Made by a program: the position numbers and the translations under genes
NCBI RefSeq assembly: GCF_900187975.1
Contig: NZ_FZPC01000014.1
Location: 1 to 64,000 of the forward strand
Origin: Pseudomonas delhiensis
GTDB taxonomy: Bacteria; Pseudomonadota; Gammaproteobacteria; Pseudomonadales; Pseudomonadaceae
Reading direction: 5' to 3'
Length of the DNA: 64,000 nucleotides
Shown here: piece after piece, positions 1,095 to 16,348 of the stretch
Position numbering within the stretch: the stretch's first letter is position 1
Layout of the letters: every line of letters begins with the position of its first letter
Notes under the pieces: model-generated
Told to the model about the DNA's origin: nothing
Seen by the model: only the letters and a program-made list of their open reading frames with translations
Databases searched by the model: none

Positions 1095-1138
1095 GCCGTC
1101 TCTCGGGCTGGTGGGCGCAGGGGCTCATCATGCGTCCC

Positions 1139-2431
1139 TCAGCGCCGCACGAACAGGGCCACCAGCGCGCTGCACACGCAGGCCGTGGTGACCACGATGA
1201 AGATCAGCGAGGTATTGCCGGTGGTGTCGAGCATGCGCCCGATCATGGGTTCGGCGAGCCCGGCGAACAGGTAGGAGGAGAAGTTCATGATCCCGGTGGC
1301 GGTGCCGGCGCGCTTGGCGCCCACCAGGTCCGGGCACAACGCCCAGAAGCTGGAGGCCGGGCCGTAGATGAAGAAGCCGCAGAGGAACAGGGCGATCAGG
1401 CCCACCGCGCTGTGCGCCGGCAGGCTCCACATCCACAGGCTGGTGAGCGCGCCGAGGAACATGTAGAGCATGATCGCCAGGTAGCGCCGGGAGCCGAACA
1501 GGCGGTCGGATACCCAGCCGTTGCTCAGCGCGCCCACCGCCATGCCCACCGGCAGCGCCACGGTGATCCACTTCGGGTCGACGAAGCTTTCGCCCTTCTG
1601 CCAGTCGGCGCCGAGGAAGTGCACCGGGACCCAGACGATCAGCCCGTAGCGCGCGGCGTTCTGGAAGCCCAGGGACACCGCGGCGATCAGCAGGCGCGGG
1701 TTCTTCAGCACCGCCTTGTAGCGCTGCAGCGAGGGTTCCTCGTGGTGACCGGCCTCGCTGGCCTTGTCCTCGGCGTTGGCCACGCCGGTGTCGCCCAGCG
1801 GCTCGAAGCCCAGGTCCTGCGGGTGTTCGCGCGCCACCAGGTAGAAGGTGATGCCGCCGGCCAGCATCAGCAGCACCGGCAGGCGGAAGATCCAGCGCCA
1901 TTCCAGCTGCAGCACGTCGATCACCAGCACCGAGGTGACGTAGGACAGCACCGAGGCGCAGCCGGCGGCGAACACGTAGAAGCCGTAGACCTTGCCGCGC
2001 TCGCCGGCGCCCCACCAGTTGGACAGCAGGCGGCTGCCGGGCGCCCAGCCCAGGGCCTGGAAGTAACCGTTGATGCCCCAGGGCAGGATCAGGCTGCCGA
2101 AGCCGCCGGCGAAGCTGGTGACCCAGTTGGCGCCGCAGGACAGCACCGCGCCCAGGCTCATGATGCGGCGGCCGCCGAACTTGTCGGCGAGGTTGCCGTT
2201 GATCGCCTGGCCCACGGCATACATCCACAGCATGGCGCTGGAGGCCCAGCCGAGGGTTTCCTTGCTCAGGCCGAACTCGGCCTGGATGCCGGGAATGGCG
2301 AAGCCGAAGGTCTGGCGGCCGGTGTAGAAGAACAGGTAGCAGAACATCGCGGCGAGCAGCATGCGCCATTGCGCCACGCGGAAGGGGGAGGCGCCCGCGA
2401 GGGGGGCGGGCAGGGTTTGCGCACGGTTCAT
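1139..2431 (-). CDS. MFS transporter, organophosphate:phosphate antiporter type
   Basis: A 430-residue, twelve-helix major facilitator protein. The N-terminal helices (FYTGRQTFGFAIPG, then GWASSAMLWMYAVGQAINGN and LADKFGGRR) have the character of the GlpT/UhpT organophosphate antiporter family. The ATG at 2431 has an AGGAAA ribosome site. Located between a phosphonate-type alcohol dehydrogenase and the LysR-phnX genes, it most likely imports a phosphonate such as 2-aminoethylphosphonate or 2-hydroxyethylphosphonate. Substrate is inferred from context only. A sugar-phosphate or other anionic substrate cannot be excluded. Confidence 0.82.
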   Translation of the reverse strand: MNRAQTLPAPLAGASPFRVAQWRMLLAAMFCYLFFYTGRQTFGFAIPGIQAEFGLSKETLGWASSAMLWMYAVGQAINGNLADKFGGRRIMSLGAVLSCGANWVTSFAGGFGSLILPWGINGYFQALGWAPGSRLLSNWWGAGERGKVYGFYVFAAGCASVLSYVTSVLVIDVLQLEWRWIFRLPVLLMLAGGITFYLVAREHPQDLGFEPLGDTGVANAEDKASEAGHHEEPSLQRYKAVLKNPRLLIAAVSLGFQNAARYGLIVWVPVHFLGADWQKGESFVDPKWITVALPVGMAVGALSNGWVSDRLFGSRRYLAIMLYMFLGALTSLWMWSLPAHSAVGLIALFLCGFFIYGPASSFWALCPDLVGAKRAGTATGIMNFSSYLFAGLAEPMIGRMLDTTGNTSLIFIVVTTACVCSALVALFVRR

Positions 2432-2540
2432 GGTGGGTTTCCTTTTGTTCGCTGGCGCCGGCCATTGGCCGGCGTGTCGGCACTCTTGTTCGGTGCAACA
2501 GGAAAGCGCGGCGGCCCGCGCCGGGCCGCCAACTGGAGCT

Positions 2541-3629
2541 TCAGGCGGCCCGGGAGCCGATGAAGTTGCGCCCGCGTGCGCCCTGCATGGCGAAGTCGAT
2601 CATCGCCTCGGCCTCGGCCGGCGTCACACCGTAATCGCCGAACTCGGTCTTCACCCCGAGGCTGTGCAGGAAGTTGCGCAAGCGCGCCTGGGCCTTTTCC
2701 AGGTCATGGCCGAAGACCTTGCGCAGGGTCTGGTCGCGGGCGGCGTCGCGGCCCCAGGCCAGGCCCAGCACCAGCGGCAGGGTGAAGGAGCAGGCGATGC
2801 CGTGGGGCAGGCCGTGGCGCAGGGTCATTTCGTAGGAGATGGAGTGCGCCAGTGCGGTCTTGGTGTTGGAGAAGGCCATGCCCGCCTTCAGCGCGGCCAG
2901 GGCCATGCGTGAGCGCAGCTCGCGGTTGCGCAGGTCGTTGTGCAGGCGTGGCAGGCAGTCGAGGATGTCTTCGATGGCGGAGATGGCGAAGGTGTCGGAG
3001 AGGGGGTTGGCGTTGTGGTTCCAGATCGACTCCAGGGCGTGGGACAGCGCGTCCAGGCCGGTGGAGACCGTTACCCCGGCGGGCACGCTGAGCATCAGCT
3101 CGGGGTCGACGATGGCCGCCGCCGGCCAGGTGCAGTCCAGGTGCAGCGAGTACTTCTTCTGCTGCTGCGCGTCCCAGATGGTGGCCCAGGGCGTCACCTC
3201 GCTGCCGGTGCCGGCGGTGGTCGGCGCCGCCACCAGGCGCTTGCAGCGGGCCGGGGCGAAGGGGCGGCCGGCGGCGAGCAACTCCAGCAGTTCGTCGAAG
3301 CGGCCGGAGGCGGTGCCGACGATCAGCGCCTTGGCGGTGTCGATGGCGCTGCCGCCGCCCAGGGCGAAGACGCTGTCACAGTCCGCCGATTCGGCCCAGA
3401 AGCGCTCGTGCTCGCCACGCAGCCAGGCGACGTCGGGGTTGGGCTGGACGTCGTCGATGACATGCACCAGGCGTTCGCCGAGCAGCGCCTGTACGCGGTC
3501 GACCAAGCCCAGGCCGCGGGCTTCGGGGAAGGTCACCAGGGCCACCTTGCCGGGGCACAGGGCTGGGAGCTGGTCGAGGCTGCCGCTACCGAAGACGGTG
3601 GCGACCGGATTGTGGAATCGGGCAGGCAT
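2541..3629 (-). CDS. Iron-containing alcohol dehydrogenase, probably acting on phosphonoacetaldehyde
   Basis: A 362-residue group III (Fe-dependent) alcohol dehydrogenase. The NAD-binding GGGSAIDTAK motif, the GTGSEVTPWA segment, and the metal-site histidines in DALSHALESIWN and LRHGLPHGIACS are all present. I chose the ATG at 3629 (MPARFHNP) because it has an AAGGAA ribosome site; a longer reading frame extends upstream without one. In phosphonate biosynthesis, Fe-dependent dehydrogenases such as PhpC interconvert phosphonoacetaldehyde and 2-hydroxyethylphosphonate. Being first in a run with a transporter, a regulator and phnX, this enzyme could feed hydroxyethylphosphonate into the phosphonatase route. 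That assignment is inference. Confidence 0.8.
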   Translation of the reverse strand: MPARFHNPVATVFGSGSLDQLPALCPGKVALVTFPEARGLGLVDRVQALLGERLVHVIDDVQPNPDVAWLRGEHERFWAESADCDSVFALGGGSAIDTAKALIVGTASGRFDELLELLAAGRPFAPARCKRLVAAPTTAGTGSEVTPWATIWDAQQQKKYSLHLDCTWPAAAIVDPELMLSVPAGVTVSTGLDALSHALESIWNHNANPLSDTFAISAIEDILDCLPRLHNDLRNRELRSRMALAALKAGMAFSNTKTALAHSISYEMTLRHGLPHGIACSFTLPLVLGLAWGRDAARDQTLRKVFGHDLEKAQARLRNFLHSLGVKTEFGDYGVTPAEAEAMIDFAMQGARGRNFIGSRAA

Positions 3630-3884
3630 GGGCAGTTCCTTGTTGTTGTTTGAACCTGGGGCCATGCTCGGGGCATTGCGGTTTTCGCTCAAATCGATTG
3701 ATTGAAGGTATGCATCGGCCTGGCCGATAGCGGCGCGAAGCGGAGGCATCGCCAGGCATGAGCCTTGGGCATATGCCTCGAGGAATGCCATGGGGAGGAG
3801 GGCGATATCGGTGCCGCAGCGGCTAAAAAAAGGTTCTTCGCTTTACGACGCGTCCTGGGTGAAAAGCCAGCATGCGCTCAGTCA
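3630..3884. other. Intergenic gap between phosphonate cluster and T6SS island
   Basis: About 255 bp with no convincing gene. A run of seven A residues near 3825-3831 reads as a T-run for transcripts leaving the T6SS island on the minus strand, but I could not pair a strong stem beside it. No direct repeats, attachment site or tRNA remnant were seen here. Confidence 0.4.
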
Positions 3885-6800
3885 TCACGGCGTTTCCAAG
3901 GTGGAGGCAGAATCCGGTCTTGCAGCATTCACCTGAAAGACCGTGGTCGGCAGCCGAAAACCACGCAGACGCAGCATGGCCAGTGGGCCGTTCGGCGTTT
4001 TGCTGCGCAGGTGCCAGGTCAATGGCAAGCCATCGGGCGTGGTGAGCACCAGCCTGGATTGTATACCGCGACTATCGAGTGCCGTCACCTGGGCGTGTTC
4101 CAGCAAGCGCACCACACCCCAGGTGCCCAGGTAGTCACCGAACAGACGCGAGCCACTCTTGACACCCGACCACCTGAGCGATGCCCCCGGATGGTCATAA
4201 GGTCCAGGCCAGCGAAATGCCTGCCAACTCTCCGTCTGGTTGAAATAGTCCAACCGGGTGCCGTCGAGAATCAGTGAGGTCTCCACCACGTCCCGTACCG
4301 GCTTCGCCTGCAACTCGAAGGGAATGCCCCAGCCATCGCCATAGAGAGCCTCCCGTACCTCGCCCAATTGATTGAGCGCCGTGAGAAACGCCGGGTTGAA
4401 GGGCAATCCCTGATTGTCCCCGGTGCTAACCCAGCGCGGGCCGTCCTTGCGCAGTATGCCGCCGAGCTGATCACGGATGAATTGATCGATGACCCCGGTG
4501 TCCACGCGAAGCATCCGCCCCAGTGCCGGAAGGGACGCATCGGCGCCGTCTTTCGCAAAGGGATAACTCCCTTCAAACTCGCGCGCCCAGTGAGCAACGA
4601 TATCTCGCTGCCATTGCAGATTCAGGCGCTGTGCGATGGGTTGCAGTACATCCGACCAGGCTTGCTCCAAGGGCAACACAAACAGGTTCTGCCCAAAGAG
4701 CGCGTACTGGCTGCCCAAACTTTGGGTGATTCGCTTGCCGTAGTCGCGGGCATCCTGATCACCGAGAGTCCGTCCTTGCAGGACTGCTTGCCCCAAGGCG
4801 TATCCCCTGGCCTGTGGGTCGGGAGCATTGGCGACTTGCTGGAGCGTCATACGCAGGCGGTCTACGCGGTTCAAAAAGCTCTGCACACTGGGCCGCTCAT
4901 CAGCCCCCTGTGCAGCGGCTCGTTTGTCCAGCAACGCCTGCATCGGACCAAAGATCGCCTCCAGAGGAGCAGGCGTCGTTAACGCCTGCTCCGCAGCACC
5001 GTGCGCGTTACCACTGTCGCCCTGATACGCCAGGGTGTTGAGCAGGGCAAGCAACGGCGACTGGCGTCGGTCGGCCAGCAGCGTCAGTTGTCCAATGGCC
5101 TCCTCGAAGCTCTCCGCTCGCCGCCAACGCACACTGTTGATAAAGCCCAACCAGGCTTCACCGAACTGCTGGAAATACCGCTCGGTCAACTGTGCCTTCA
5201 GAACGTGCGGCTGCAATTCGCTGGCAATGTCTTGGGGCGTGTCGCTCAGTACCCAATCGATCTCCTCGCGCCGTGCGGCAGCAATGGCCTCTATCGATTG
5301 GCGAATGGAGCCTTCCCATGCCTGCCGGGTAAATACGCCGGGCACGCTGAGGGACGTGTCGAACAGCCGCACGGCATCGGTTTCGCCGACCATGCTGCGC
5401 AAACTCAAATCCACATACTGGTTTCGCGCCGCATCGAGCACCTGCTGATACAGCGTCTCCACACCGCTGCGCTGGCCCAGTTGAGCCAGCAGTATCTGGC
5501 GCGCCTGGGCCACTATTTCCGCGTCCGGCTCGATCTTCCAGTCGGCATGCGCCGGTAAATTCTGAGCATAGAAACGCCACAGTGCGGGAGAGCGCACTTG
5601 CTCAGTGGTTGCCAGCACCTTGGCCAGAAACTCGGCGTTAGCCCGCTCGGGATGCGCCATCATCAAGTAGGCTTTGAGCTGACCGTGCGCCGCCTGGGTT
5701 CGCTCGGCTTGCTGCTGAGCGCTTGGTGGCAGGGCGGCAAAGGCCCGCAGTTCGGACACCAGCGTACGGGCAGCTTCGTCACGCAGCAGGCGGCTATTGG
5801 CCTGGGTGTAGGGTGCCCATAAGGCGGCGAGCAACGCATCGTTCTGGCTCAAGCCAAAACCCAGATACCAGGGCACGCCCTGCGCTTGCCGGGTCTGCAA
5901 CTGAGCCATCGTGCGGGTGAGGTCGCTGAGCGCGGCGAGCTGATCGTCGATCTCGCCACCGTGCTGCAAGACCGCCACGGCGGATTGTGCGGTGGCAACC
6001 TGGCTGCGATTTCCGGCAAAGGACACCAGCACCGCCAGCACGGCAAGGCCGGCCAGCCCCAACAAGGATACCTGCGCGCCACGCCCCCAGGTCCAGCCCA
6101 GCACACGACCAGTTGCCTGCCGGTCCTCGCGCACCGCCTGCCAATCCGCGTTGGGCCACCAGGCGTGCTGCATACCCTCCACCGCCGAACGTGGTTGCGG
6201 CGGGCTGAAGACCAGGCCACGTAGCGGCATGCCCTTGGCGAAATGGATCAGCGAGGGGGCCAGAGCATCACGCCACTGGGTAATGCCGTCCCGCTCCAAA
6301 TCCCGGGACAAACGCAGCAAGAAGTCATGCGCCGGAACCTTGGCCATCTGCCCCAAGCCTTGCGCGTGCAGCGGCCTCACCAACTGGCGCAGGGATGATT
6401 CGATCTGTTCGACCGAAGCCTTTACCGGCAGCAGGCAGCACACGGATTGGCGTTCGCGCGTGGTCTGCTCCCAGTCACTCTGACAGACCTGCCACAGGTA
6501 CAGTGGAGCCTGCCAACGCAACTGGCGCGCCAGTTCGCGCAAGCGATGTGCCCCATGGCCCAGGCCCTGGGCATCACGGCACTGAGCCTCGTTCAGCGCC
6601 CAGACCACGCCATCCAGCGGAGACGCTGCGCGCAATGACGTTAAGGCCCTCCAGCGCCGGGTATTCTGCTCGCCGAGCAACGCGCCGCCCCACAGCAAAA
6701 CGTCGCCATTCGACTCCAGCCATCCTGCACCCTCCAATCCGGGCGCGATGGCTTCGACTTCAGCCGGCTCACCGAACACCAGCAGCAAGCGGACCTTGCT

Positions 6801-7145
6801 TCTCCACAGGGGGCCTAGCTCAGTGCGCAGATGCTCTTGCAGCCCGGCAAGCGCATCAGGCTCCGACGCCGCTTCAGGCATAAGCGCTTCCGGCTCAGCC
6901 GGGGCGCTGTGCCGCGTCTCCAGCCGATAGCGATCACGCCCCAGGCTCCGGCCTATCCAGAGATAGGCCGCCAGTATGAGCACCAGCAGCGTGCAAAAGC
7001 CGGCGATCATCCACCACGCCAACTGTTGTTCTTCGCTGCCCGGGCTGATGCCCAGCCATGCCGGCTGAACACTGACGAACAGGGCTGCGCCCAAGCCCAG
7101 CACCATGACAACGAAGATAAGAGAAACGAGCAAGAATAAACCCAC
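3885..7145 (-). CDS. Orphan TssM/IcmF-like inner-membrane protein with eroded P-loop
   Basis: A 1086-residue ImcF-family protein. TM helices lie at about 2-26 and 43-65, a third at 359-378, then a large periplasmic part ending in the TssM-type C-terminal beta domain (about 985-1075; FRWPGPYDHPGASLRWSG, then GPLAMLRLRGFRLP). In ordinary TssM the loop after TM2 holds a Walker A P-loop. Here the matching stretch (residues 122-136, LVFGEPAEVEAIAPG) lacks the GxxxxGKT signature, although the following hydrophobic strand (GDVLLWGGAL) and the SPLDGVVWALNE segment still align by pattern. It is the last gene of the vgrG operon, 10 bp after the 416-residue membrane protein, and no tssJ, tssL or tssK is nearby. 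It may be an accessory docking or delivery protein rather than part of a complete apparatus. Confidence 0.85.
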   Translation of the reverse strand: MGLFLLVSLIFVVMVLGLGAALFVSVQPAWLGISPGSEEQQLAWWMIAGFCTLLVLILAAYLWIGRSLGRDRYRLETRHSAPAEPEALMPEAASEPDALAGLQEHLRTELGPLWRSKVRLLLVFGEPAEVEAIAPGLEGAGWLESNGDVLLWGGALLGEQNTRRWRALTSLRAASPLDGVVWALNEAQCRDAQGLGHGAHRLRELARQLRWQAPLYLWQVCQSDWEQTTRERQSVCCLLPVKASVEQIESSLRQLVRPLHAQGLGQMAKVPAHDFLLRLSRDLERDGITQWRDALAPSLIHFAKGMPLRGLVFSPPQPRSAVEGMQHAWWPNADWQAVREDRQATGRVLGWTWGRGAQVSLLGLAGLAVLAVLVSFAGNRSQVATAQSAVAVLQHGGEIDDQLAALSDLTRTMAQLQTRQAQGVPWYLGFGLSQNDALLAALWAPYTQANSRLLRDEAARTLVSELRAFAALPPSAQQQAERTQAAHGQLKAYLMMAHPERANAEFLAKVLATTEQVRSPALWRFYAQNLPAHADWKIEPDAEIVAQARQILLAQLGQRSGVETLYQQVLDAARNQYVDLSLRSMVGETDAVRLFDTSLSVPGVFTRQAWEGSIRQSIEAIAAARREEIDWVLSDTPQDIASELQPHVLKAQLTERYFQQFGEAWLGFINSVRWRRAESFEEAIGQLTLLADRRQSPLLALLNTLAYQGDSGNAHGAAEQALTTPAPLEAIFGPMQALLDKRAAAQGADERPSVQSFLNRVDRLRMTLQQVANAPDPQARGYALGQAVLQGRTLGDQDARDYGKRITQSLGSQYALFGQNLFVLPLEQAWSDVLQPIAQRLNLQWQRDIVAHWAREFEGSYPFAKDGADASLPALGRMLRVDTGVIDQFIRDQLGGILRKDGPRWVSTGDNQGLPFNPAFLTALNQLGEVREALYGDGWGIPFELQAKPVRDVVETSLILDGTRLDYFNQTESWQAFRWPGPYDHPGASLRWSGVKSGSRLFGDYLGTWGVVRLLEHAQVTALDSRGIQSRLVLTTPDGLPLTWHLRSKTPNGPLAMLRLRGFRLPTTVFQVNAARPDSASTLETP

Positions 7146-7155
7146 TGAACACTAC

Positions 7156-8406
7156 CTACTTTGAAGACGGCGGCACGCCCGTGAGCGTGGTGCACCAGAG
7201 CATCTGTGTTGCGTCCTCAGCCCCACTGACAATGAACTGCGGCTTGGCGTTGATGCCGGCGGCCTCGGTGGCCGACGCGATGGCGATCCAGGGGGCTGCA
7301 CAGCCGGCATGCCCCAGCGAAGCACCCAGGTCGTACAGGCCAAGCCCGGGCTTGACCAGGCACGGCAAATCGAGCAGCGCCTTGGTGATATCCGGTTGGC
7401 GCGTTGGCGCGATACCGCTTAACCAGACATGTTCGACCGCTGCCACCGGCAGGGGAACCCAGGTCAACGCCTGCTGGGCGGCGTACAGCAGGTCATCCGC
7501 CGTGGTCGTACGCTCCTGCTCGGGGCGATGCAGGTAGGCCCGTGGAATGAGCCCGCCTTGGCGCTGACGATTGCTCAACAGCAGTCCTACTGCCGTCTCG
7601 GCAGTACCGTCCTGTTCCCCTGAGGCCAGCCGCATGGCCACCACCAGCAGTAGCGCCGGGTCATTGCTACGGGTATCCAGCCAATGATCAATGGCGGCCA
7701 GCCCGGTGCCCTTCACGGCGACGACCTCTTGCGTGATGCCAGACTCACGCCACGCTCGTGCCCAAACCCGGGCCCGATGCTCATCCGTTAAGGCACATTC
7801 GGTTTCCAGCAGCAAAGCCAGCGGCTGTGTCGTGGGAAGGGATGAAAGCGGCTTCGCCAAGTCGGACAACACACGGCGATAGAGTCCCAACAAATAGGTC
7901 TCTTCATCGGACTGCGCCGCAGACACGAGAGCAGCAGGCAATTGGCTGTGCCGGTACACCATCTCTTCGCGGCCTCGCGCCGGTTGACTCTTCAGAGCGC
8001 TGCGGTTACTGAGCAGTGCCTCGATCTGACCCGCTGTACCGCCGTCATTCCCCTCATGGGCGGCGCTGTAGAAACTGCTGGCCACGATTTGAAGAGAGCG
8101 CCGCCCTTGGCGCAGCCGATTACTCAGGTCCAGGAAACGCTGCTCATTGAACCCCTCGGCCTGCCCCTGTTGCAGCACCCACACCATCAGCCGCACCACC
8201 AGCAAGCCTCCCCAGATCAACAACGGAATGCCCAAACTGGTTCGCCAAAACGTCGTAGAGTCCTGCGCCGCCGCATCCTGGCTGAGCACTAATGTCAGGC
8301 CGAAGCCGACCATCAGAAACAGCACCAGCAACGCAAGCCACACCCACAGGCTGGGCGGGCTAGGTGACTCCGTAGGGGCGGGGATATTGTCCAGGCGTAC
8401 CGGCAT
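7156..8406 (-). CDS. T6SS-island membrane protein of unknown function, partner of the TssM-like protein
   Basis: A 416-residue protein I do not recognise. Two TM helices (about 19-42 and 57-77) precede a soluble domain. The second half (about 240-410) has alternating small hydrophobic strands and Gly/Ala-rich turns (PALLLVVAMRLASGE, AVGLLLSNRQRQGG, YDLGASLGHAGCAAPWIAIA). Their order reminds me of a thiolase-like fold, with GASLGHAGCAA resembling the GH-A-GAA turn of ketosynthases, but no catalytic triad is evident. It starts 2 bp after the PAAR gene and ends 10 bp before the TssM-like gene, so all are surely co-transcribed. It could be a chaperone or adaptor for loading the cell-wall effector. 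Relation to the Tla3/DUF2875 adaptor family is possible but not established. Confidence 0.6.
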   Translation of the reverse strand: MPVRLDNIPAPTESPSPPSLWVWLALLVLFLMVGFGLTLVLSQDAAAQDSTTFWRTSLGIPLLIWGGLLVVRLMVWVLQQGQAEGFNEQRFLDLSNRLRQGRRSLQIVASSFYSAAHEGNDGGTAGQIEALLSNRSALKSQPARGREEMVYRHSQLPAALVSAAQSDEETYLLGLYRRVLSDLAKPLSSLPTTQPLALLLETECALTDEHRARVWARAWRESGITQEVVAVKGTGLAAIDHWLDTRSNDPALLLVVAMRLASGEQDGTAETAVGLLLSNRQRQGGLIPRAYLHRPEQERTTTADDLLYAAQQALTWVPLPVAAVEHVWLSGIAPTRQPDITKALLDLPCLVKPGLGLYDLGASLGHAGCAAPWIAIASATEAAGINAKPQFIVSGAEDATQMLWCTTLTGVPPSSK

Positions 8407-8408
8407 GA

Positions 8409-8672
8409 TTAGCTCGCCGTGGCCTGTGGCAAAGACGTCAACAGGACGCAGCCACAGGCGCAGCGGTGTCCATGGAAAGCAACGGGAATGCCATGATCCT
8501 TGAAGGTTGGATGGCCTTCGGCAATGACCGTGGGGCCATGTCCCGGTAGCGGGCAGGTGACTGCATCACCCACGCGTGCCACGCCAATACCGTGAAACTT
8601 CATCACGGTAGAGCCCGAAATAACGGTGCCGCCGCCCGTGGTTTTATCGCCAATGCGGATGATTCCTTTCAT
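8409..8672 (-). CDS. PAAR-domain spike-tip protein
   Basis: An 87-residue single PAAR domain, the cone that sharpens the VgrG trimer tip and often recruits effectors. Typical features are the start MKGIIRIGDKTTGGGTVISG, the GIGVARVGDAVTCPLPGHG turn, and the zinc-site His/Cys cluster near the end (HGHRCACGCVLL). There is no fused toxin extension. It lies between the immunity candidate and the 416-residue membrane protein in the vgrG operon. An AGAGAG ribosome site precedes the ATG. Confidence 0.93.
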   Translation of the reverse strand: MKGIIRIGDKTTGGGTVISGSTVMKFHGIGVARVGDAVTCPLPGHGPTVIAEGHPTFKDHGIPVAFHGHRCACGCVLLTSLPQATAS

Positions 8673-8802: not shown

Positions 8803-9531
8803 TCAACGAAGTGACCGTAGCTCTGGTGGGACAAAATAATCTCCGCCCTTCATCTTAATCAAATGCTTGAGGGTCGTCTTGTTGGAATATGTATTCCTGC
8901 ATCCATCAAGTCCATCCACCGCTTTGATATCAACAGAGTCTTCCTTTATTTTTAATTCGTGATATCCATCAGTAGTTGGAGATATATAGATGGTGCTGCT
9001 CTTCTTATTAAATGCCCCCGAACAATGCATGTCCCACTCACCACTGTATTCGTACGTGCGCAGTCCGCTGAGTACTTTTACTAGCTCGCCACCCCTCAAT
9101 ATGTAAAGATTTAGGGATTGAGAGCTATAGGGGTTTGGCTGGGACTGTCCCACCCAATCTACACGAACACCAAATGCTCTAACCCCTTTGGAAATCTCAT
9201 ATTTTGCTGTATCGATTGAGGCTCCCGCAAACCTTATTGCCTCATCAGTAAGAGCGCCTGAATCGCTAGTCGCTGCAACAATTTTTCTATTCTTGGGGTT
9301 AAGCAAGAACACATCTAGGTCAACCTCGCCCCCATTGCGAACTGGAATAGCAAAAGCAACATAATCACCAGAGGCCAAATATTTGCAAGCGGCACCCACC
9401 CAATTTATTTCTTTGTGTGAATAATTAATGTCTATAACGGGCTTGAATTCCTCAAGGCAGCCTGCGTTAGCGCTCCCAAGCACTAGCGACAAAAGAAGAG
9501 GCATACAAGCTTTAATTTTTCCACAGGCCAT
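8803..9531 (-). CDS. Secreted protein, candidate periplasmic immunity protein for the cell-wall effector
   Basis: A 242-residue protein with a signal peptide (hydrophobic MPLLLSLVLG core, cleavage probably after SANA at residue 23). The mature part is beta-rich with several cysteines (near residues 25, 48, 177 and 200). I recognise no family. It directly follows the effector gene (50 bp), is exported to where peptidoglycan is attacked, and is markedly AT-rich compared with everything else in the window, all typical of T6SS immunity genes. The ATG at 9531 has a GGAG ribosome site. Function is inferred from position, export signal and base composition. Confidence 0.65.
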   Translation of the reverse strand: MACGKIKACMPLLLSLVLGSANAGCLEEFKPVIDINYSHKEINWVGAACKYLASGDYVAFAIPVRNGGEVDLDVFLLNPKNRKIVAATSDSGALTDEAIRFAGASIDTAKYEISKGVRAFGVRVDWVGQSQPNPYSSQSLNLYILRGGELVKVLSGLRTYEYSGEWDMHCSGAFNKKSSTIYISPTTDGYHELKIKEDSVDIKAVDGLDGCRNTYSNKTTLKHLIKMKGGDYFVPPELRSLR

Positions 9532-9580: not shown

Positions 9581-12373
9581 TTAATGTAGTATTCTATTGC
9601 TCCACAGACGAGCGAAGTTCCCCCTTCGACCGCGCCTGCTAAGCTCATCCGTTCCATGATTTATCACATTAGTCACAGAGTTTACTACGTCATCGGTAGC
9701 GCCCCTGTCCGCTATGCTGTATAAATTGTTGCTCAACCAAAAGAATGCCGCAGATCTAGCAGCGTACTTCATGGATGAAAGTAGGTCGGGATTCTGTAGA
9801 AAATTCACACTGCCGCCACCTAACAAGGATGAATTACTATTGTGCCATTCGGTAAAGCGGCTATAGTTATATCTGCCGGTAAGCTGCTTTAGGCCCCTGC
9901 CTCTGTACCGCCAGCCATCCCCAGAATCATAGCTTCCATTACCTAGCTCACTACGCCCACCATAGGCACCATTTGCAATAGCCTCAAAATCAAGCTGCCC
10001 CATCGGCTCGCCATTACTTTTTATTTTTCCAGCCCTAATTGAGTAACCGTGCGCATCAGCTTCGTTCGGATGAGCCCTAAAGTAACTAAAAAGACTTTTC
10101 AATGATGTTGATGAGTAGTAGAAGCCCTCAGTTACCGCCAAGTCGCTACCAGTCTCTTGCAGGATTTGAGCAAAAAAGTGCGCACGCCTCAATGGAGTGT
10201 CCAACTTATAGAAATCAAGATTTCCATTCAGCTCAGTTGCTATTTCCTGTAGGTCTGAGTTCCTGGAAGGGCTTAGATCGGGATAAATTGCTTGCATAAT
10301 TTCAAGCGTAAATATGAAGTCATTAGAAATAAAGCTTACAGCCATCCCAATTGGATTGAAGTGATAGGCTGTTCCGTCCTTCGGCAATATTCCTCGTTCC
10401 GCTACTTCGCCCCACCAACTCAACTCTTTGATGCGCGTTTTCTCAGCCGCCCAATTCAAAATGGGGGTTGAAGGCGTATGCCCCATTACTTGATCTAGGG
10501 AGTCCCATTTCCGCTGCTGGTAATACCACTCGCTTTCGTAGTGAATGACCAATTGCGAAATGGATTGAGCATAGGCCGGAATACTCAGTGCCTGTTGCAC
10601 TTCCTGCGCTTCGATCTTGCCATTTCGATTGGCATCGATAATGTCGAACAACCGTTGACGCACCGGTCCTTTGTCGGAGGCGTCAGCCAAAGGCTGCCAC
10701 TGCGCCAGTTCCTTCTCATCGAAATAGTTGCCCATGTTCTTCAAGAAGTACGAAAGCGCATTGTGCGGTGGGTCATTGTTGTAAATGACATCAAAGCCGT
10801 CCCACGACCACGGACTAACCCAAGGCGTTTTTCCTACCTCGTCACACACCCACACATCGGGCAGTAGCTTGCCATCCGTGCCAATTAACAGGTTCTCCAG
10901 GCGATACCAGCTCTTGGCCTTGGCGGCTTCGCTCGCGGGCACCTTGATCTTTCGGTCAGCGGCAAGACCGTCCAGCATCGAGCGGGGCAGCAGCAATGGC
11001 GCGCTACTCACGGAGTGAGCATGATTCAAGTCGGGGGGCGTGGCTGCACTGTAGCTGTCTTGGTGAATGACAGCCTTTGTGCCTGCCTCCAGCTTCAGCC
11101 AGGTCTTCTCTTTCTCGGGCAGGTCTTTCGCCCAGTCACGACTCTTCTTGAAGAAGGTCTCCACATTCTCGCAAGCAAACACTTCCAGGTGCAGCTTTTC
11201 TTGTGGATGTCCATCTCGGCAATCTTGATACGGGCCGAGATGGCCAATCAGATGGCCAGCCTTGATGGGAACGGGCTTGTCGAGCACGACCACCTTCCCA
11301 CATTCCGGTACGTGCTCAGGTTCAAGTGACGCAAAGTGTATGTACTGGGTGACGCTCTCCAGCTTGCGGAACTCTTCCGTGCCGCTGATGGTGAGTTCTG
11401 TACCTTTGGGCAGCTTGAACAGCACCGTTCCCGAGGTACTGGGAGTTGCACGCACGTTTAAATCATCACTGTGCGTATTGACCCGATGGATGCCGCCCCC
11501 CAGGTCTTGCAGCACACTAACGCTCACGTACCCACGCAAGGTGCCATCCGGGTTTTGCAGATCCACTGGCCCCTTGATGCCTTCGACTTTTCGATACTCG
11601 CCTGTACCACTGACGGTAACGGTTGCGCCGCGCGGCAGGAAACCAATGGTCTTTCCACGCAAGGGCGAGTGCCGAAGATTCAATCCCCTTTCATCTGGGT
11701 GATGTCGACGCCGATCTTCATTCGTTTCCTTGACCCGGCGCTGAGACGACTCGGGCCAGAAGGCAGGACGAGCCTTTCTGATATCAGCCTGATAGCTGTC
11801 CCAATCGGCCAGGTGCATGTACAGGCTGTAGAAGATCAGGGCCGGTGGCGATTCGGTCTTGCCCTCGATCCTGGGGGCTTCCAGTCGATGGCGTACCAGA
11901 ACAAAGCCCGAGGCGAAAGGCGCGTCCACTGTTACACCCGGAGCCGGGAAGAACTTCGTCTTGGGCGTGTGTTCGGGAATGCGGTAGGCAATCACCTCAC
12001 CATCGGCCAAACAGCGCACATGGCTCTGCCCCTCCGGGCCAACGGTTCCAGCCGTACCTGAGTCGAAATGCACCCCACCATGCCACAGGCCATTGCGGCC
12101 CAACGGGAAGTAGCCAGCCTGGGCTTTCGCCAGGTTGGTCAGTTGTTGGAGCGGGTCCGATTTAGCGCCAAACGGGTGACTCCAACTCTTCACAGCAGGC
12201 AAGTCACTGGAAGGCCCAGGTGAAGTGGGCCCCGGGGCTGGCGTTGGCAGCAATGGAGACGGGCGAGAGGTCAGTGGTGCCGTGCTGGAGCCTGGCTTCG
12301 GCGGCACAGGAGGACCATCACGCCACCGTCGATACTCGTCCTTCATGGCTTGATAGAGGTTAGAAAAGAACAA
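9581..12373 (-). CDS. T6SS peptidoglycan-targeting effector: M23-like, two SH3b, EF-hand, GH19 domains
   Basis: A 930-residue multidomain protein. After a Pro-rich linker (about 20-60) come M23-like segments: WHGGVHFDSG (about 97), YSLYMHLADW (about 183) and EKLHLEVF (about 370). They are interrupted by two SH3b-type repeats (about 228-285, RGLNLRHSPLRGKTIGFLPR; and 301-345, LNVRATPSTSGTVLFKLPKG). The M23 metal ligands look altered (HGGVH, KLH). An EF-hand-like loop, DANRNGKIEAQE, lies near 576. The C-terminus (about 690-930) is a GH19 chitinase/lysozyme domain with both catalytic-type glutamates (AQILQETGSD, AVTEGFYY), RYRGRGLKQLTGRYNY and VTNVINHGTDELSRR. The start is TTG at 12373, chosen because AGGAG lies 8 bp upstream; the ATG at 12346 has no ribosome site. 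GC falls toward the 3' end, suggesting an exchanged toxin domain. Confidence 0.85.
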   Translation of the reverse strand: MFFSNLYQAMKDEYRRWRDGPPVPPKPGSSTAPLTSRPSPLLPTPAPGPTSPGPSSDLPAVKSWSHPFGAKSDPLQQLTNLAKAQAGYFPLGRNGLWHGGVHFDSGTAGTVGPEGQSHVRCLADGEVIAYRIPEHTPKTKFFPAPGVTVDAPFASGFVLVRHRLEAPRIEGKTESPPALIFYSLYMHLADWDSYQADIRKARPAFWPESSQRRVKETNEDRRRHHPDERGLNLRHSPLRGKTIGFLPRGATVTVSGTGEYRKVEGIKGPVDLQNPDGTLRGYVSVSVLQDLGGGIHRVNTHSDDLNVRATPSTSGTVLFKLPKGTELTISGTEEFRKLESVTQYIHFASLEPEHVPECGKVVVLDKPVPIKAGHLIGHLGPYQDCRDGHPQEKLHLEVFACENVETFFKKSRDWAKDLPEKEKTWLKLEAGTKAVIHQDSYSAATPPDLNHAHSVSSAPLLLPRSMLDGLAADRKIKVPASEAAKAKSWYRLENLLIGTDGKLLPDVWVCDEVGKTPWVSPWSWDGFDVIYNNDPPHNALSYFLKNMGNYFDEKELAQWQPLADASDKGPVRQRLFDIIDANRNGKIEAQEVQQALSIPAYAQSISQLVIHYESEWYYQQRKWDSLDQVMGHTPSTPILNWAAEKTRIKELSWWGEVAERGILPKDGTAYHFNPIGMAVSFISNDFIFTLEIMQAIYPDLSPSRNSDLQEIATELNGNLDFYKLDTPLRRAHFFAQILQETGSDLAVTEGFYYSSTSLKSLFSYFRAHPNEADAHGYSIRAGKIKSNGEPMGQLDFEAIANGAYGGRSELGNGSYDSGDGWRYRGRGLKQLTGRYNYSRFTEWHNSNSSLLGGGSVNFLQNPDLLSSMKYAARSAAFFWLSNNLYSIADRGATDDVVNSVTNVINHGTDELSRRGRRGNFARLWSNRILH

Positions 12374-12428: not shown

Positions 12429-14810
12429 CTATCCAGAGAAGTTCGAGAAACTCTGGTGGCTACGCTGGTATTCACCGAGCTGAGGAAGTTCGGGGAGCTG
12501 GGGTGGCTGCTTGGCGGGGCCTTGGTAATTGAAGTCCGCCGACTTGATCAGGACGTCGCCCTGGGTACCGGACTCGATGCCGTTCGGGGCCAAGGTGATG
12601 TAGGTGCCACCGGCGTTGAGTACGATCTTCTTCTTGGCGGTAAGGTGGATTTCGTCCTCGGTGCTGACGATATCCAGCGCCTGACGAGCAAGCAGTTCCA
12701 GGCGGTCGTTTTGCGCCTGAATCTGTACCGCGCCCTGGTTGGCGATGAGCTTCATGCCGAGCTTGCGCACGAACAGGCTCAGACCTTCGCCTACACCGAT
12801 GAACAGGCGTTTCATCACGCTGATGTCGGCCTCGTTGCCAGCGTTGAGCATCAGGTTGCGTTGGGCCGCCAGTTGCAAGTGATGGCCGCTGGTGACGGCA
12901 ATCCCTTGTGGTGCGCTGAGCAGTGCCACAGAAGCCTGCAAGGTATCGAGGCGCTCGCTCAGCAGGGTCAGTTGCGCCTGGACGTCCGCCGGCCCGGCAT
13001 TAGCGCCCTCGGCAGCTGAGGACAGCGATTTGAGCTGCTCTCCCGCCTCCTGCAAACGCTCCAAGGCAGCGGCCATGTGCAGCACTTGCCCTTGGGCTCC
13101 GGGCTGCTCGTCGGCGCTGATGAAGATGCCCCGGCCACTGCGGATGGCGCCCCAGCCATCGGTGCGCAGTTCAAAGCCTTCGCCTCGTTTCTGTCGCTTC
13201 GCGTCCACCAGATGGCCCAAGTTAAGCTGGCTCTTGCCGGCGTACTCGGTGCTGAGCTTGAGATGCTCCTGGCCCCGCGTGTCATCCAGGCGAATCTTGT
13301 TGTTCGCGGGCGTTCTTAAAATATTTCTGCGGTTATTCCGGATGGTGACGTGATCAGGGTGCAGGCTGTCATGCAGAGCATGGGCGATGAACGGGCGGTC
13401 CGGGTCGCCCTGCTCGAAGGCCACGGCCACTTCGGTGCCGGCCAGCAAGGGCATGTGCAGGCCGTAGGTATCGCCGGCATAGGGGCGCGCGAGACGCAGC
13501 CACATGCTTTCCCGTCCTGCCGGCCAGGTGTCGCGGTCGAAGAGGAAGTTGACGCGGTAGCGTCCTTCTCCGTCGAGGTGGGCGTAAGGGTCGTTCTGCT
13601 GCGGGCTGGTGACACGCGCCGGGACGGTGCCGGCGATGCGTGGTTTGGGCGGCACCGGTGGGCGGTAGGCGATGCTGTCGTTATCCGGGATGGCTTCGAA
13701 GCGCACCTCGAAGCTGCGGGCGCGGTCGGCGGTACAGTGGGTGCGGACGATCAGCGCGCCTTCGGTGAAGGCTGAAGGTGCCCCGCCCTCGACCTTGAGC
13801 ACTTGGCCCGGTGCCAGGGCCGCACTGCTGCTGGCACCGCTCAGGCGGAGCTGGTCATTCAGGTAGCGCTCGTAGGCCAGCTGCGCGTAGAAGACGCCGC
13901 TTTCGGAGTGGCCTTCTTCATCGCCACGCGCCAGGGGATCACCGAGGCTCTGATAATGCTCGTCGGCGTAGTGGTAAGCCTCGCCGTAGGTGGTGGCCGC
14001 CCCTCGGGTCAGATCGGCCTGGCCGTCGAGGTTGGCACCGGCGTCACGCGAATAGTAGGCCCGGGTGCTGACCAACTGCTGCACGACCTGGTGGCTGGCT
14101 TGCAGGTCCCAGACGGCATCCTGGCCACCACTCTCCAGGCCACTCAACGGACGCGGCGATAGCCTGACATCTCGCTGGTAATGCATCGGAGAGTCTTTAA
14201 ACTCGACGACATCGATTTTTAGCCTCAGGTCCATACTGAAGCTAAACCAGATACCACGCTCGGCGCAGAGGCGCTTGATGTACTGAAGATCTGACTCGCC
14301 GTACTGGAGCAGCTGTTCGTGCTGCTTATAGGTGCGACCAAGATCGATCAGGAAATCCTGCCCGCGCCATCCATGCCGCCGCAGGATGGTTTCCACCACC
14401 TCGGGCACGCTCTGGTTCTGGTAGATGCGGTACTGGCAGCCCTTGTCGAGCAGGGCCAGACGCGGCTCCAGCGTCAATTCGTAGTGCGCCTCGTCGCGGG
14501 AGGCCGACAGGCGTCGGAAGCGGGTGATCACCCCATGCAGGGTGCGCAGTGGGGCGATTTCTGGCGGCGGTATATAGCCGCGAATCGTCACCGACGGCGG
14601 CGCTGCACGCAGTCTGAAGCTGGCGCTTTTGCCGAGTATGGTGTCGGCGGCGATGTCCAGACTTGGGCTGGTGACTTCGATGACGTAGCTAAACGTCTCG
14701 CTGAGCGCCTCGGCGCCGGAAAAGGCGAGGACATCCAGCAGAGCGCTCTGGCCATCTACCGTGAGGGTGTGGCGGCTATGGTCGAAGAAGGGCCTGAACT
14801 CATTCAGCAT
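12429..14810 (-). CDS. vgrG: VgrG type VI secretion spike protein
   Basis: A 793-residue VgrG. Residues 1-400 are the gp27-like hub (LDVLAFSGAEALSETFSYVI near the start), followed by the gp5 OB-fold (DPYAHLDGEGRYRVNFLFDR, PYAGDTYGLHMPLLAGTEVA, FEQGDPDRPFI) and the repetitive beta-prism with a DUF2345-type C-terminus (GGTYITLAPNGIESG). No extra toxin domain is fused at the end. I use the ATG at 14810, which has a GGGAGG ribosome site; the frame extends 24 codons upstream without one. It is the first gene of the six-gene island, 55 bp before the effector, and no hcp is adjacent. Confidence 0.95.
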   Translation of the reverse strand: MLNEFRPFFDHSRHTLTVDGQSALLDVLAFSGAEALSETFSYVIEVTSPSLDIAADTILGKSASFRLRAAPPSVTIRGYIPPPEIAPLRTLHGVITRFRRLSASRDEAHYELTLEPRLALLDKGCQYRIYQNQSVPEVVETILRRHGWRGQDFLIDLGRTYKQHEQLLQYGESDLQYIKRLCAERGIWFSFSMDLRLKIDVVEFKDSPMHYQRDVRLSPRPLSGLESGGQDAVWDLQASHQVVQQLVSTRAYYSRDAGANLDGQADLTRGAATTYGEAYHYADEHYQSLGDPLARGDEEGHSESGVFYAQLAYERYLNDQLRLSGASSSAALAPGQVLKVEGGAPSAFTEGALIVRTHCTADRARSFEVRFEAIPDNDSIAYRPPVPPKPRIAGTVPARVTSPQQNDPYAHLDGEGRYRVNFLFDRDTWPAGRESMWLRLARPYAGDTYGLHMPLLAGTEVAVAFEQGDPDRPFIAHALHDSLHPDHVTIRNNRRNILRTPANNKIRLDDTRGQEHLKLSTEYAGKSQLNLGHLVDAKRQKRGEGFELRTDGWGAIRSGRGIFISADEQPGAQGQVLHMAAALERLQEAGEQLKSLSSAAEGANAGPADVQAQLTLLSERLDTLQASVALLSAPQGIAVTSGHHLQLAAQRNLMLNAGNEADISVMKRLFIGVGEGLSLFVRKLGMKLIANQGAVQIQAQNDRLELLARQALDIVSTEDEIHLTAKKKIVLNAGGTYITLAPNGIESGTQGDVLIKSADFNYQGPAKQPPQLPELPQLGEYQRSHQSFSNFSG

Positions 14811-15226
14811 GTTCCGCCTCCCGCTCACCCAAGCACTGGAGACTCCTTGCTGAGCAGTAGAACGATGGTACCCGAACCTCAATCAACCCACTCAGTGTGT
14901 ATCCCGCATCCCGTACGATATTGCTCATTCATCATCCTTGGGAAAAGCAATGCAATGGCAGCAAATACTATCGTCGGCTTACAGCGCCTTTCTGTAGGAC
15001 TTATCCCAAAAGTAACGATGATCTTCGAAAGCCTTGAAATCATGACGTGCGTCCGTAGGAGCACGGGCTCCGCCCATTCACCGGGTTTTCGTACCCAGTG
15101 ACGATGGCCCCTTCCTCGGTGCCGAGGCATGGCTAGGGCAGCGAGATGAATCCGACGCTCGGGCGGGGCACTGCTCACTGGTCCGGCAGGAGTGTTTCGC
15201 GCTCGATACAGGCTTGCTCTGTGCCG
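14811..15226. other. Upstream region of the vgrG operon
   Basis: About 416 bp without a supported gene. The half nearest vgrG is relatively AT-rich (about 14880-15050) and should hold the operon promoter. I looked for a -24/-12 sigma-54 element and for clear -35/-10 hexamers and found none convincing. The half nearest 15227 is GC-rich and appears to be degraded sequence trailing the recombinase pseudogene. Confidence 0.4.
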
Positions 15227-15800
15227 TCACTTCTCTGTGTGTCGAGGTGCTTCGAGCAGAGGCGTTGAATCCAGCACGGAGCGCGCCGCGAGGCCGCCGA
15301 AGGAGGTCGCCGGGTCGATGTAGCACATGGCTGACTTGATGTCCTTCCAACCCACGTATGTCATCAGTGTCTTGTTGTCCCAGCCTGGCCGTGGCCCAGG
15401 TGGCACAACCACGCCGCAGCGAGTGGCTGGTATCGGCCTCAGCCGTGAGTCCCGAGCGTTGCAGTGCCCGGTGTAGCAGCCTGATCAGGCTGCCTGGGTT
15501 CAGCGCGTCGTCATTCAAGTGCCCCGAGCGAGCCAGGCGACGGAACACCGCGCCCCGGACAAGCCCCGCCGCGCTGATCCAGTCCAAGTAGGCCTGTACG
15601 GGGTAGAGGCGTTTCAGCGCCGGTGCATAGTGGGTGGTGCCGTGGTTATCCCGGTCGCTCTCGCTCCAGGGCAGGAACAGCGTCATGCCGGCACCGGCTT
15701 GGGCCTGGATATGTTCAACCTGCAGGCGACACAGCTCATCGCTACGAAAGCCGCGCCAAAAGCCGATCAGCAGTAGCGCGGCATCGCGTCGGCAGCGCAG
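15227..15800 (-). pseudogene. Truncated, frameshifted tyrosine recombinase
   Basis: The C-terminal catalytic half of a phage-type integrase. Read on the minus strand from about 15800, one frame gives RRDAALLLIGFWRGFRSDEL (box I arginine region) and SHSLRRGCATWATARLGQQD (His-x-x-Arg box). A frameshift near 15370-15410 moves the rest into another frame (NKTLMTYVGWKDIKSAMCYI), holding the GW turn and the nucleophilic tyrosine in MCYIDPA, with a stop at 15227. The N-terminal core-binding domain is missing: sequence upstream of 15800 switches to a KfrA-like gene on the other strand. It is probably a dead remnant of the element that brought in, or was carried near, the T6SS island. Confidence 0.82.
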
Positions 15801-16259
15801 ATGGCCAATCTGGTTGTACAGATGGAGGAGCAGATGACTGAGGAGGCGCAAGCGGCGGTGGCCGAGGAGCGGGAGCAGCTAGCCCGCGAGCGGCGCGACT
15901 ACCAAAAGCGTATTCACCAGGTGGAGAGCCGCAGCCAGCAATTCGAGGCGCAATGCGGCCCTCGCGGAGAAATTGCAGGCCTTAGAGCAAGGCCTCCAGC
16001 AGGAGCTGCAGCAACGGCAGCAGGCCGACGTTGATATAAGCCCGCCAACGGCGATCTGGAAACCCGCCAGCAGGATTGCGATGAGCGAATTCGCTCACAG
16101 GAAGAGAAGCATCAGCACGCCCGCGATGCACTGGAACACTATCGCCAGGCCAGTAAAGAACAGCGTGAACAAGAGCAGCGTCGGCACGAGTCCCAGGTAC
16201 AACAACTGCAAATTTCGCGAGGCTTCGACGGAGCAGGTTCCGCACGCACAGAGCCTTAA
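15801..16259 (+). pseudogene. KfrA-like coiled-coil DNA-binding protein remnant
   Basis: A degraded gene of the KfrA type found on plasmids and integrative elements. The long charged coiled coil is visible in three successive pieces: first frame to about 15955 (AQAAVAEEREQLARERRDYQ, IHQVESRSQQFEAQ), second frame about 15957-16040 (KLQALEQGLQQELQQRQQAD), then back in the first frame from about 16041 (LETRQQDCDERIRSQEEKHQ, ARDALEHYRQASKEQREQ) to a stop at 16259. Two compensating indels with a stop between them make it non-functional. The N-terminal DNA-binding domain is absent. It starts head to head with the truncated recombinase, so one event may have removed both 5' ends. Confidence 0.75.
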
Positions 16260-16296
16260 AAAAAGGGCCCACCTCACGGAACAACGAGGTGGGCCC
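16258..16296 (-). terminator. Rho-independent terminator of the ccoN4-ccoQ4 operon
   Basis: A perfect 11-bp inverted repeat, GGGCCCACCTC at 16265-16275 pairing with 16286-16296 around a 10-nt loop. On the minus strand it is followed by a run of seven T residues (16264-16258). Its polarity fits transcripts from the cytochrome oxidase genes, ending about 50 bp past the last stop codon. Confidence 0.9.
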
Positions 16297-16348
16297 CGGA
16301 AAGTGCCAGACAGGCACAAGGGAGGGATCCGTCCCTGGATCGGGGAAA

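Follow-up and report, generated by a model that had tools for sequence, protein, structure and literature searches.

How a type VI secretion system (T6SS) with several VgrG-effector sets chooses its tip is an open question, and a locus at the edge of a contig from Pseudomonas delhiensis puts it in an unexpected form: what could a full-length TssM be doing at the end of a vgrG cassette that brings no secretion apparatus of its own? The window analysed here is the whole 64,000-nucleotide stretch C35:1-64000 of a 6.7 Mb genome (contig NZ_FZPC01000014.1), and on its minus strand, to which all cassette coordinates below refer, lie from 14882 down to 3885 vgrG, a gene for a protein with SH3 and EF-hand matches, a PA3715-family gene, a PAAR gene, a gene here called X and tssM, the last being 3.9 kb from the contig end. 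The tssM product (P0001; 3885..7145, 1086 aa) is an orphan of the type known from enteroaggregative Escherichia coli (EAEC) and is without a Walker A motif; X (P0002; 7156..8406, 416 aa) has two transmembrane (TM) helices and a ketosynthase-like domain and is predicted to be a Tla3-like adaptor. A sequence-only reading of this DNA had described a 1086-residue TssM-like protein at the end of a vgrG operon, coupled to a second, two-helix membrane protein and with no tssJ, tssK or tssL nearby. Pfam matches and gene order bear out the first of these statements, and the pairing recurs in 15 of 75 X loci where TssA, TssF, TssG, TssJ and TssE are lacking. The third agrees with a tblastn search of the 64 kb, within the limit set by the nearby contig end: TssA, B, C, E, F, G, J, K and L, ClpV, TagL and OmpA/ImpA from the EAEC-type cluster on contig C57 of the same genome had no further match, proteins of other T6SS types not being among the queries. 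Judged from sequence, the locus and its relatives display the gene order given above, a remote relation of X to the adaptor Tla3, a TssM built of separately evolving blocks, and exchange of the TssM front together with X and cargo. Two readings of these features are treated here as equal rivals, and the data do not separate them. In the first, which we regard as a plausible answer though somewhat short of a probable one, the locus is a free-standing EAEC-type cargo cassette in which X would load the effector on VgrG and dock the tip on the hairpin of a spare TssM.

The block-wise evolution of TssM is central to both readings. We distinguished a hairpin (residues 1-107, TM1-TM2; 6825..7145) and a G-domain-like cytoplasmic block (residues 108-355; 6081..6824), together the N-block (residues 1-355), from a C-block running from residue 356 on, which in the window comprises TM3 and the periplasmic part (residues 356-1086; 3885..6080). 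In Pseudomonas loci the C-block correlated with TssA, TssF, TssG, TssJ, TssE, OmpA/ImpA and ClpV at Spearman coefficients of 0.78-0.91; for the N-block the same genes gave 0.55-0.70 (ClpV 0.80, on 28 pairs), and X gave 0.71. Median identity over 91 common pairs was 49% for X and 48% for the N-block, compared with 73% for the C-block, 80% for TssA, 85% for TssF and 80% for TssG. When the C-block was held constant in partial Mantel tests, the N-block remained tied to X (0.52, p 0.0005, 33 loci), the hairpin most closely so (0.74, p 0.0005, 32 loci) and residues 108-355 weakly (0.32, p 0.007, 33 loci), the latter being tied strongly to the C-block given the hairpin (0.60). The C-block was tied to TssA given the N-block (0.80, p 0.0005, 17 loci); the value for the N-block and TssA given the C-block was 0.17 (p 0.19). 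By the same test X followed the SH3 effector (0.40, p 0.0145, 16 loci) and the C-terminal part of VgrG (0.30, p 0.0045, 19 loci); no tie was seen to the N-terminal part of VgrG (-0.17, p 0.95, 19 loci), and the C-block and the SH3 effector given X reached 0.25 (p 0.099). As far as these comparisons go, the TssM front tracks X and the periplasmic part tracks the apparatus genes.

Cargo type follows the same division. With cargo classes defined by the protein clusters between vgrG and X, the cargo label changed 8 times on the X tree, 10 times on the N-block tree and 12 times on the C-block tree, all three covering the same 44 loci, compared with 14.3-14.5 changes for shuffled labels (on the C-block tree, 2 of 200 shuffles reached 12). 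Pairs of loci with C-blocks 80% or more alike were then scored for a sharp front switch, i.e. a changepoint at which the drop is at least 20 points. There were 34 such pairs, 31 of them with known cargo; the three L041 pairs, two of them switched, were left out as their cargo lies off the contig. A switch was present in 13 of 14 different-cargo pairs and in 4 of 17 same-cargo pairs, and all four of the latter involve L050, without which the count is 0/13. L050, all four of whose same-cargo pairs switch, has its TssM beside apparatus genes in an open frame without about 130 cytoplasmic-domain residues; its front is 56% identical to that of L049, and its X differs as well (56-60%). Omission of L057, which is split by a frame change, gives 11/12 and, with L050 also omitted, 0/12; one same-cargo pair, L030-L044 (62 to 82%), falls just under the 20-point threshold. 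Fisher's test for 13/14 versus 0/13 gives 7.5e-7, a value that assumes independent pairs, which these pairs are not. The breaks in the 13 switched pairs lie at residues 105-109 in five and at residues 349-373 in eight, places that bound the cytoplasmic domain on either side; the hairpin thus switches with cargo in 13/13 and the cytoplasmic domain in 8/13. Since the TssM front changes together with X and toxin type, X probably docks cargo on that front.

What X might be is indicated by its relatives. Its closest protein match is from Pseudomonas sp. SCB32 (78%), and the best Foldseek match to a model of X is the Tla3 structure 8yz3 (E 2.1e-11, TM-scores 0.51/0.49, root-mean-square deviation 7.9); the same entry is found by an X profile search at E 2.5e-5, the next match having 0.96, and hhalign aligns X with three Pseudomonas Tla3 proteins at E 3.4e-6 over 103 columns. 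Tla3 (DUF2875; PF11394, Tla3_N) serves Tle3 as its adaptor, is encoded in the vgrG2b island of P. aeruginosa and is reported to bind its own effector and the TTR domain of VgrG2b (PMC6560169). X may resemble it in fold, although ketosynthases score alike, shares with it a C-terminal motif region of 100 residues and the placing of its gene in a vgrG-effector-immunity operon, and differs from it in having two TM helices, in lacking a Tla3 Pfam match and in adjoining tssM. Because there is a sequence relation to Tla3 and no match to Tla3_N, we call X Tla3-like rather than a DUF2875 protein; it is a remote relative of this T6SS cargo adaptor.

A search with an X profile (A1) of a collection of 84,980 species genomes yielded 73 loci, all from Pseudomonas and Enterobacterales. 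With three loci of our own, 76 were mapped, and after removal of L092 (X shorter than 300 aa) 75 were classified. X and TssM stood together with TssA, TssF, TssG, TssJ or TssE in 33 loci (counted as next to apparatus from the presence of such genes) and without any of these in 15; X was alone in 13, another 11 lay at contig edges and three had a broken TssM. An orphan is here a TssM with none of these five genes seen in the locus and more than 2.5 kb of sequence after tssM; two of the 15 (L085, L088) have ClpV or TssB pieces upstream, and in some the contig stops short on the upstream side. Starting from TssM instead, X or a divergent X linked to Tle1 adjoined 15 of 15 TssMs in 14 regions, three partial matches being left out and six regions being shared with the loci from the X search. 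The gene pair is therefore recurrent, and X stands beside TssM inside ordinary clusters too. The divergent X with Tle1 cargo occurs at L010:6039-7172 and in L124, L126, L127 and the E. coli locus L137; other Tle1-labelled loci carry the common type. In another E. coli locus, L138 (E06), an IS21-type element lies between X and tssM, and the E. coli EAEC-type cluster L139 has the gene order of the cassette, vgrG-effector-immunity-PAAR-X-TssM, where the candidate X, a 382-aa hypothetical protein, is assigned by position only. EAEC PAAR is EC042_4537 (PMC10715212), so the EAEC gene between PAAR and tssM would presumably be EC042_4538, a tag of which we found no mention in the literature searched. 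The same study reports that EAEC PAAR is required for localization of TssK and not of TssM (PMC10715212). In the X-only island L037 a remnant of the TssM C-terminus (residues 1029-1108) follows X directly (11294-11550), and some X-only islands may therefore derive from X-TssM by deletion.

A natural chimera joined at TM3 is among the evidence in favour of docking. The orphan TssM of SCB32 (G015, a closed genome) is, in DNA windows, 84-95% identical to that of the window from residue 11 to 334 and 52-71% after TM3; compared with the resident TssM of its own genome it is 38-68% identical before TM3 and 92-100% from about residue 424. In the rival reading, homologous recombination between the 5' part of vgrG and the conserved tssM region simply swaps cassettes; X and the front of TssM would be carried along without a cargo-specific role, and the orphans would arise as by-products of duplication or capture. 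We consider this account just as credible as docking. Crossovers need homology, which is found in the conserved tssM region, and X and the TssM front would therefore come along. Such hitch-hiking is in keeping with the breakpoints at residues 105-109 and 349-373, with a tie to X that declines with DNA distance, with the first 35 residues of TssA left about 1.2 kb after the SCB32 orphan tssM (L123) and the TssM remnant in L037, and with at least nine gains or losses of the orphan state, counted by starred branches on a tree of 48 labelled rows; in P. aeruginosa, too, effectors are described as being swapped, the dominant breakpoint lying at the vgrG 3' end (PMC11751169). It fits less well with the upkeep of the genes. 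Each of the 15 orphan TssMs has an open frame of 1086-1178 aa, and every pair computed gives a ratio of non-synonymous to synonymous substitution rates (dN/dS, Nei-Gojobori) of 0.08-0.47, the N-block exceeding the C-block in seven pairs, with the chimeric window-SCB32 pair excepted. In the pair L020-L061 it is 0.20-0.27 in both TssM parts and in X, and both genomes are without matching TssF and TssK. That X tracks the C-terminal and not the N-terminal part of VgrG also speaks against hitch-hiking, and linkage alone leaves the far divergence of X and the TssM front unexplained.

Under the docking reading, VgrG, PAAR and effector form the tip, and X would hold the effector and the VgrG extension, as Tla3 does. 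The two TM helices of X would probably pack on the TM1-TM2 hairpin of TssM, X thereby docking the loaded tip on the spare TssM and bringing it to the membrane complex, which the spare TssM could join through its conserved periplasmic block. A bolder version, which we put forward tentatively and think rather unlikely as it stands, is that X and the front of TssM together make up a cargo-docking surface that can be exchanged: each VgrG cassette of EAEC-type T6SSs would bring its own X and matching hairpin, and orphan cassettes would supply alternative TssM subunits to one shared machine, letting it accept several tips. Several observations weigh against docking in either form. The tie to X decays along the DNA from hairpin to cytoplasmic domain to periplasmic part, as plain linkage would also predict; this decay lowered our confidence in docking and raised that in hitch-hiking to the same level. 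In the five pairs that break at residues 105-109, cargo and X were exchanged and the cytoplasmic domain remained with the apparatus. The N-block does not track the C-terminal part of VgrG (partial Mantel 0.13, p 0.11), the raw Spearman correlation with the SH3 effector is nearly the same for C-block (0.75) and N-block (0.78), and the Tle1 cargo class (four rows) clusters on none of the three trees. As to X, many ketosynthases score close behind Tla3 in the Foldseek search, the alignment with Tla3 spans only about 100 residues, Tla3_N does not match X at E up to 5, and Tla3 is cytoplasmic whereas X has two TM helices. Finally, two hosts of orphans from the window's sister clade, G018 (contig C12, locus L134) and G022 (contig C5, locus L132), are without EAEC-type TssF and TssK, the only TssF found being one of another type at 31-33%, and their spare TssM is therefore without a matching machine; two further hosts of that clade, G002 and G008, have EAEC-type TssF elsewhere in the genome and only partial TssK matches. 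It follows that an orphan can outlive its own machine or be captured without it, which makes it less likely that an orphan serves a resident machine in every case.

These same hosts raise the possibility that orphan TssM and X work with a T6SS of another type in the same cell. G018 and G022 keep the cassette while the sole T6SS found in them is of non-EAEC type, and in G018 the distance from the end of tssM to the TssF of that system is about 11.5 kb. In G022, however, the two are about 140 kb apart, and the TssM of the other system has a PF14331 domain and was not among the matches of the P0001 search; we regard this explanation as improbable.

The absence of a P-loop is not what makes the locus unusual. 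The profile search advocated with the sequence-only reading matched the IcmF-related, helical and C2-like Pfam domains in P0001 above their cut-offs and missed the NCBIfam equivalog TIGR03348 (225.5 versus 388.15 bits). EAEC TssM, the structure of which is solved, aligns with the window protein at 646 bits and likewise has no P-loop. Given this clear relation and the score short of TIGR03348, P0001 is filed as a relative of EAEC kind and not as a TIGR03348 equivalog. At the Walker A place (residues 119-136; 6738..6791) GK[ST] is absent from all 63 aligned rows, the window included. The strict P-loop pattern is absent from the right place in the best 120 of 159 homologues of the N-terminal part, the single match among those 120 lying elsewhere, at residue 236 of P0230; a looser pattern is likewise missing there in every one of the 49 full-length TssMs from the context survey, including 33 that adjoin apparatus genes (in L083 it matches upstream of the place, at residue 88). 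In the window's own genome TssM-like genes lie on five contigs, with a P-loop on C47 (one) and C59 (two) and without one on C35, C57 and C71, and the C57 cluster comprises by Pfam TssB, C, K, L, TagL, ClpV, VgrG, M, A, F, G, J and E. Because it is shared by apparatus-linked relatives and the solved EAEC TssM, absence of the P-loop is a trait of EAEC-kind TssMs. According to a review, nucleotide motifs are present in certain TssMs and missing from others, and substitutions in the Walker A motif of Edwardsiella EvpO left the secreted proteins unchanged (PMC9972734). The earlier idea that loss of the P-loop sets this orphan apart as a special pseudo-ATPase is thus not supported, the same loss being found in 33 of 33 apparatus-adjacent TssMs and in EAEC TssM. 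An ATPase-dead TssM that gates or poisons the resident machine could be argued from the missing P-loop and from the resident cluster of the same type on C57, yet the resident and EAEC TssMs equally lack the motif and leave no contrast to act through, and we think this most improbable. Of the sequence-only reading, a recurrent TssM linked to vgrG cassettes and its two-helix partner are retained, with evidence that is indirect and compatible with cargo-linked docking; the lost P-loop as a mark is not.

The remaining genes of the cassette are those of a tip and its cargo. An 87-aa PAAR tip protein (8409..8672; PF05488, 84 bits) precedes, in ascending coordinates, a 242-aa PA3715-family protein (8803..9531; NF052451, 164.6 bits), from its position a likely immunity protein, a 930-aa predicted peptidoglycan-hydrolase effector (9581..12373) and an 817-aa VgrG spike with a DUF2345 extension (12429..14882). 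As in VgrG auxiliary modules, vgrG thus stands with putative adaptor, effector and immunity genes away from an apparatus cluster. Domains in the effector family vary, with SH3_3 in 11, GH19 in seven, M23 in five and pesticin in three of 19 members scanned (E up to 0.1), a make-up that would be as in polymorphic wall-cutting toxins. The left flank of the window matches other relatives up to about 3765 and the right flank matches G008, G010, G016 and G021 only from about 16258-16312 onward, which suggests a 12.5 kb island. An integrase-like open reading frame (15078-15851; Pfam, 28 bits) adjoins vgrG. Directly after tssM lies PsrA, an iron-containing alcohol dehydrogenase (2541-3791; 553 bits); the block 1130-3790 is shared with 11 relatives at 86-87% identity, and in the 10 of these covered by the TssM search no match to an EAEC-type TssM adjoins it. 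A second X-TssM pair in this genome, L009 (G000:C71:1-18000), has a phospholipase D (PLD)-type effector as cargo and is followed by a zinc-ribbon protein, TssA, TssF, a short TssG, TssJ and an OmpA-like protein; its contig starts inside the cassette, and L009 may therefore be half of a second cluster.

Among described systems, EAEC T6SS-1 (Sci-1) has a TssM (PDB 6ixh/6hs7) 42% identical to that of the window over 478 structurally aligned residues; the window TssM differs in having no other apparatus gene of the same type within the 64 kb except vgrG and PAAR. The nearest counterparts are the incomplete loci of Klebsiella pneumoniae, the variability of the K. pneumoniae tssM 5' end and the vgrG auxiliary modules. 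Like the cassette, the VgrG5a module of P. ogarae F113 places vgrG, adaptor, effector and immunity genes outside the apparatus cluster; a term search of the main text of that paper found no tssM, icmF or vasK, whereas the window module has a full TssM (PMC10671463). The incomplete K. pneumoniae loci II and III likewise have vgrG, effectors and PAAR without a full apparatus; locus II is reported to be without hcp, clpV, tssB and tssC and to have an insertion in tssJ, and the window keeps only vgrG, PAAR and tssM (PMC7108748). In K. pneumoniae i2 clusters tssM is 97% identical overall and variable at bp 1-400, and vgrG is variable after bp 1,700 (PMC10964426), the same two variable ends as in our analysis; the passage is primer-design advice and does not connect this variability with cargo, X or recombination. 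Such clusters are also reported to carry strain-specific genes in the interval from vgrG to tssM (PMC9550808). Our own label i2-like derives from gene order and from papers on Enterobacter and Klebsiella i2 clusters, not from a TssB tree. In the literature searched, outside which most subscription papers lie, we found no account that describes X next to tssM as an adaptor, reports an exchange of the front of TssM linked to cargo, or presents a lone EAEC-kind TssM in a vgrG cassette.

If X and the TssM front are indeed matched to cargo, the membrane complex would take part in the choice of cargo rather than serve as a passive base. In the model EAEC cluster, the adaptor would then be encoded by the uncharacterized gene that separates PAAR from tssM, a role to be tested, and the variable 5' end of tssM in the Klebsiella i2 clusters would be accounted for.

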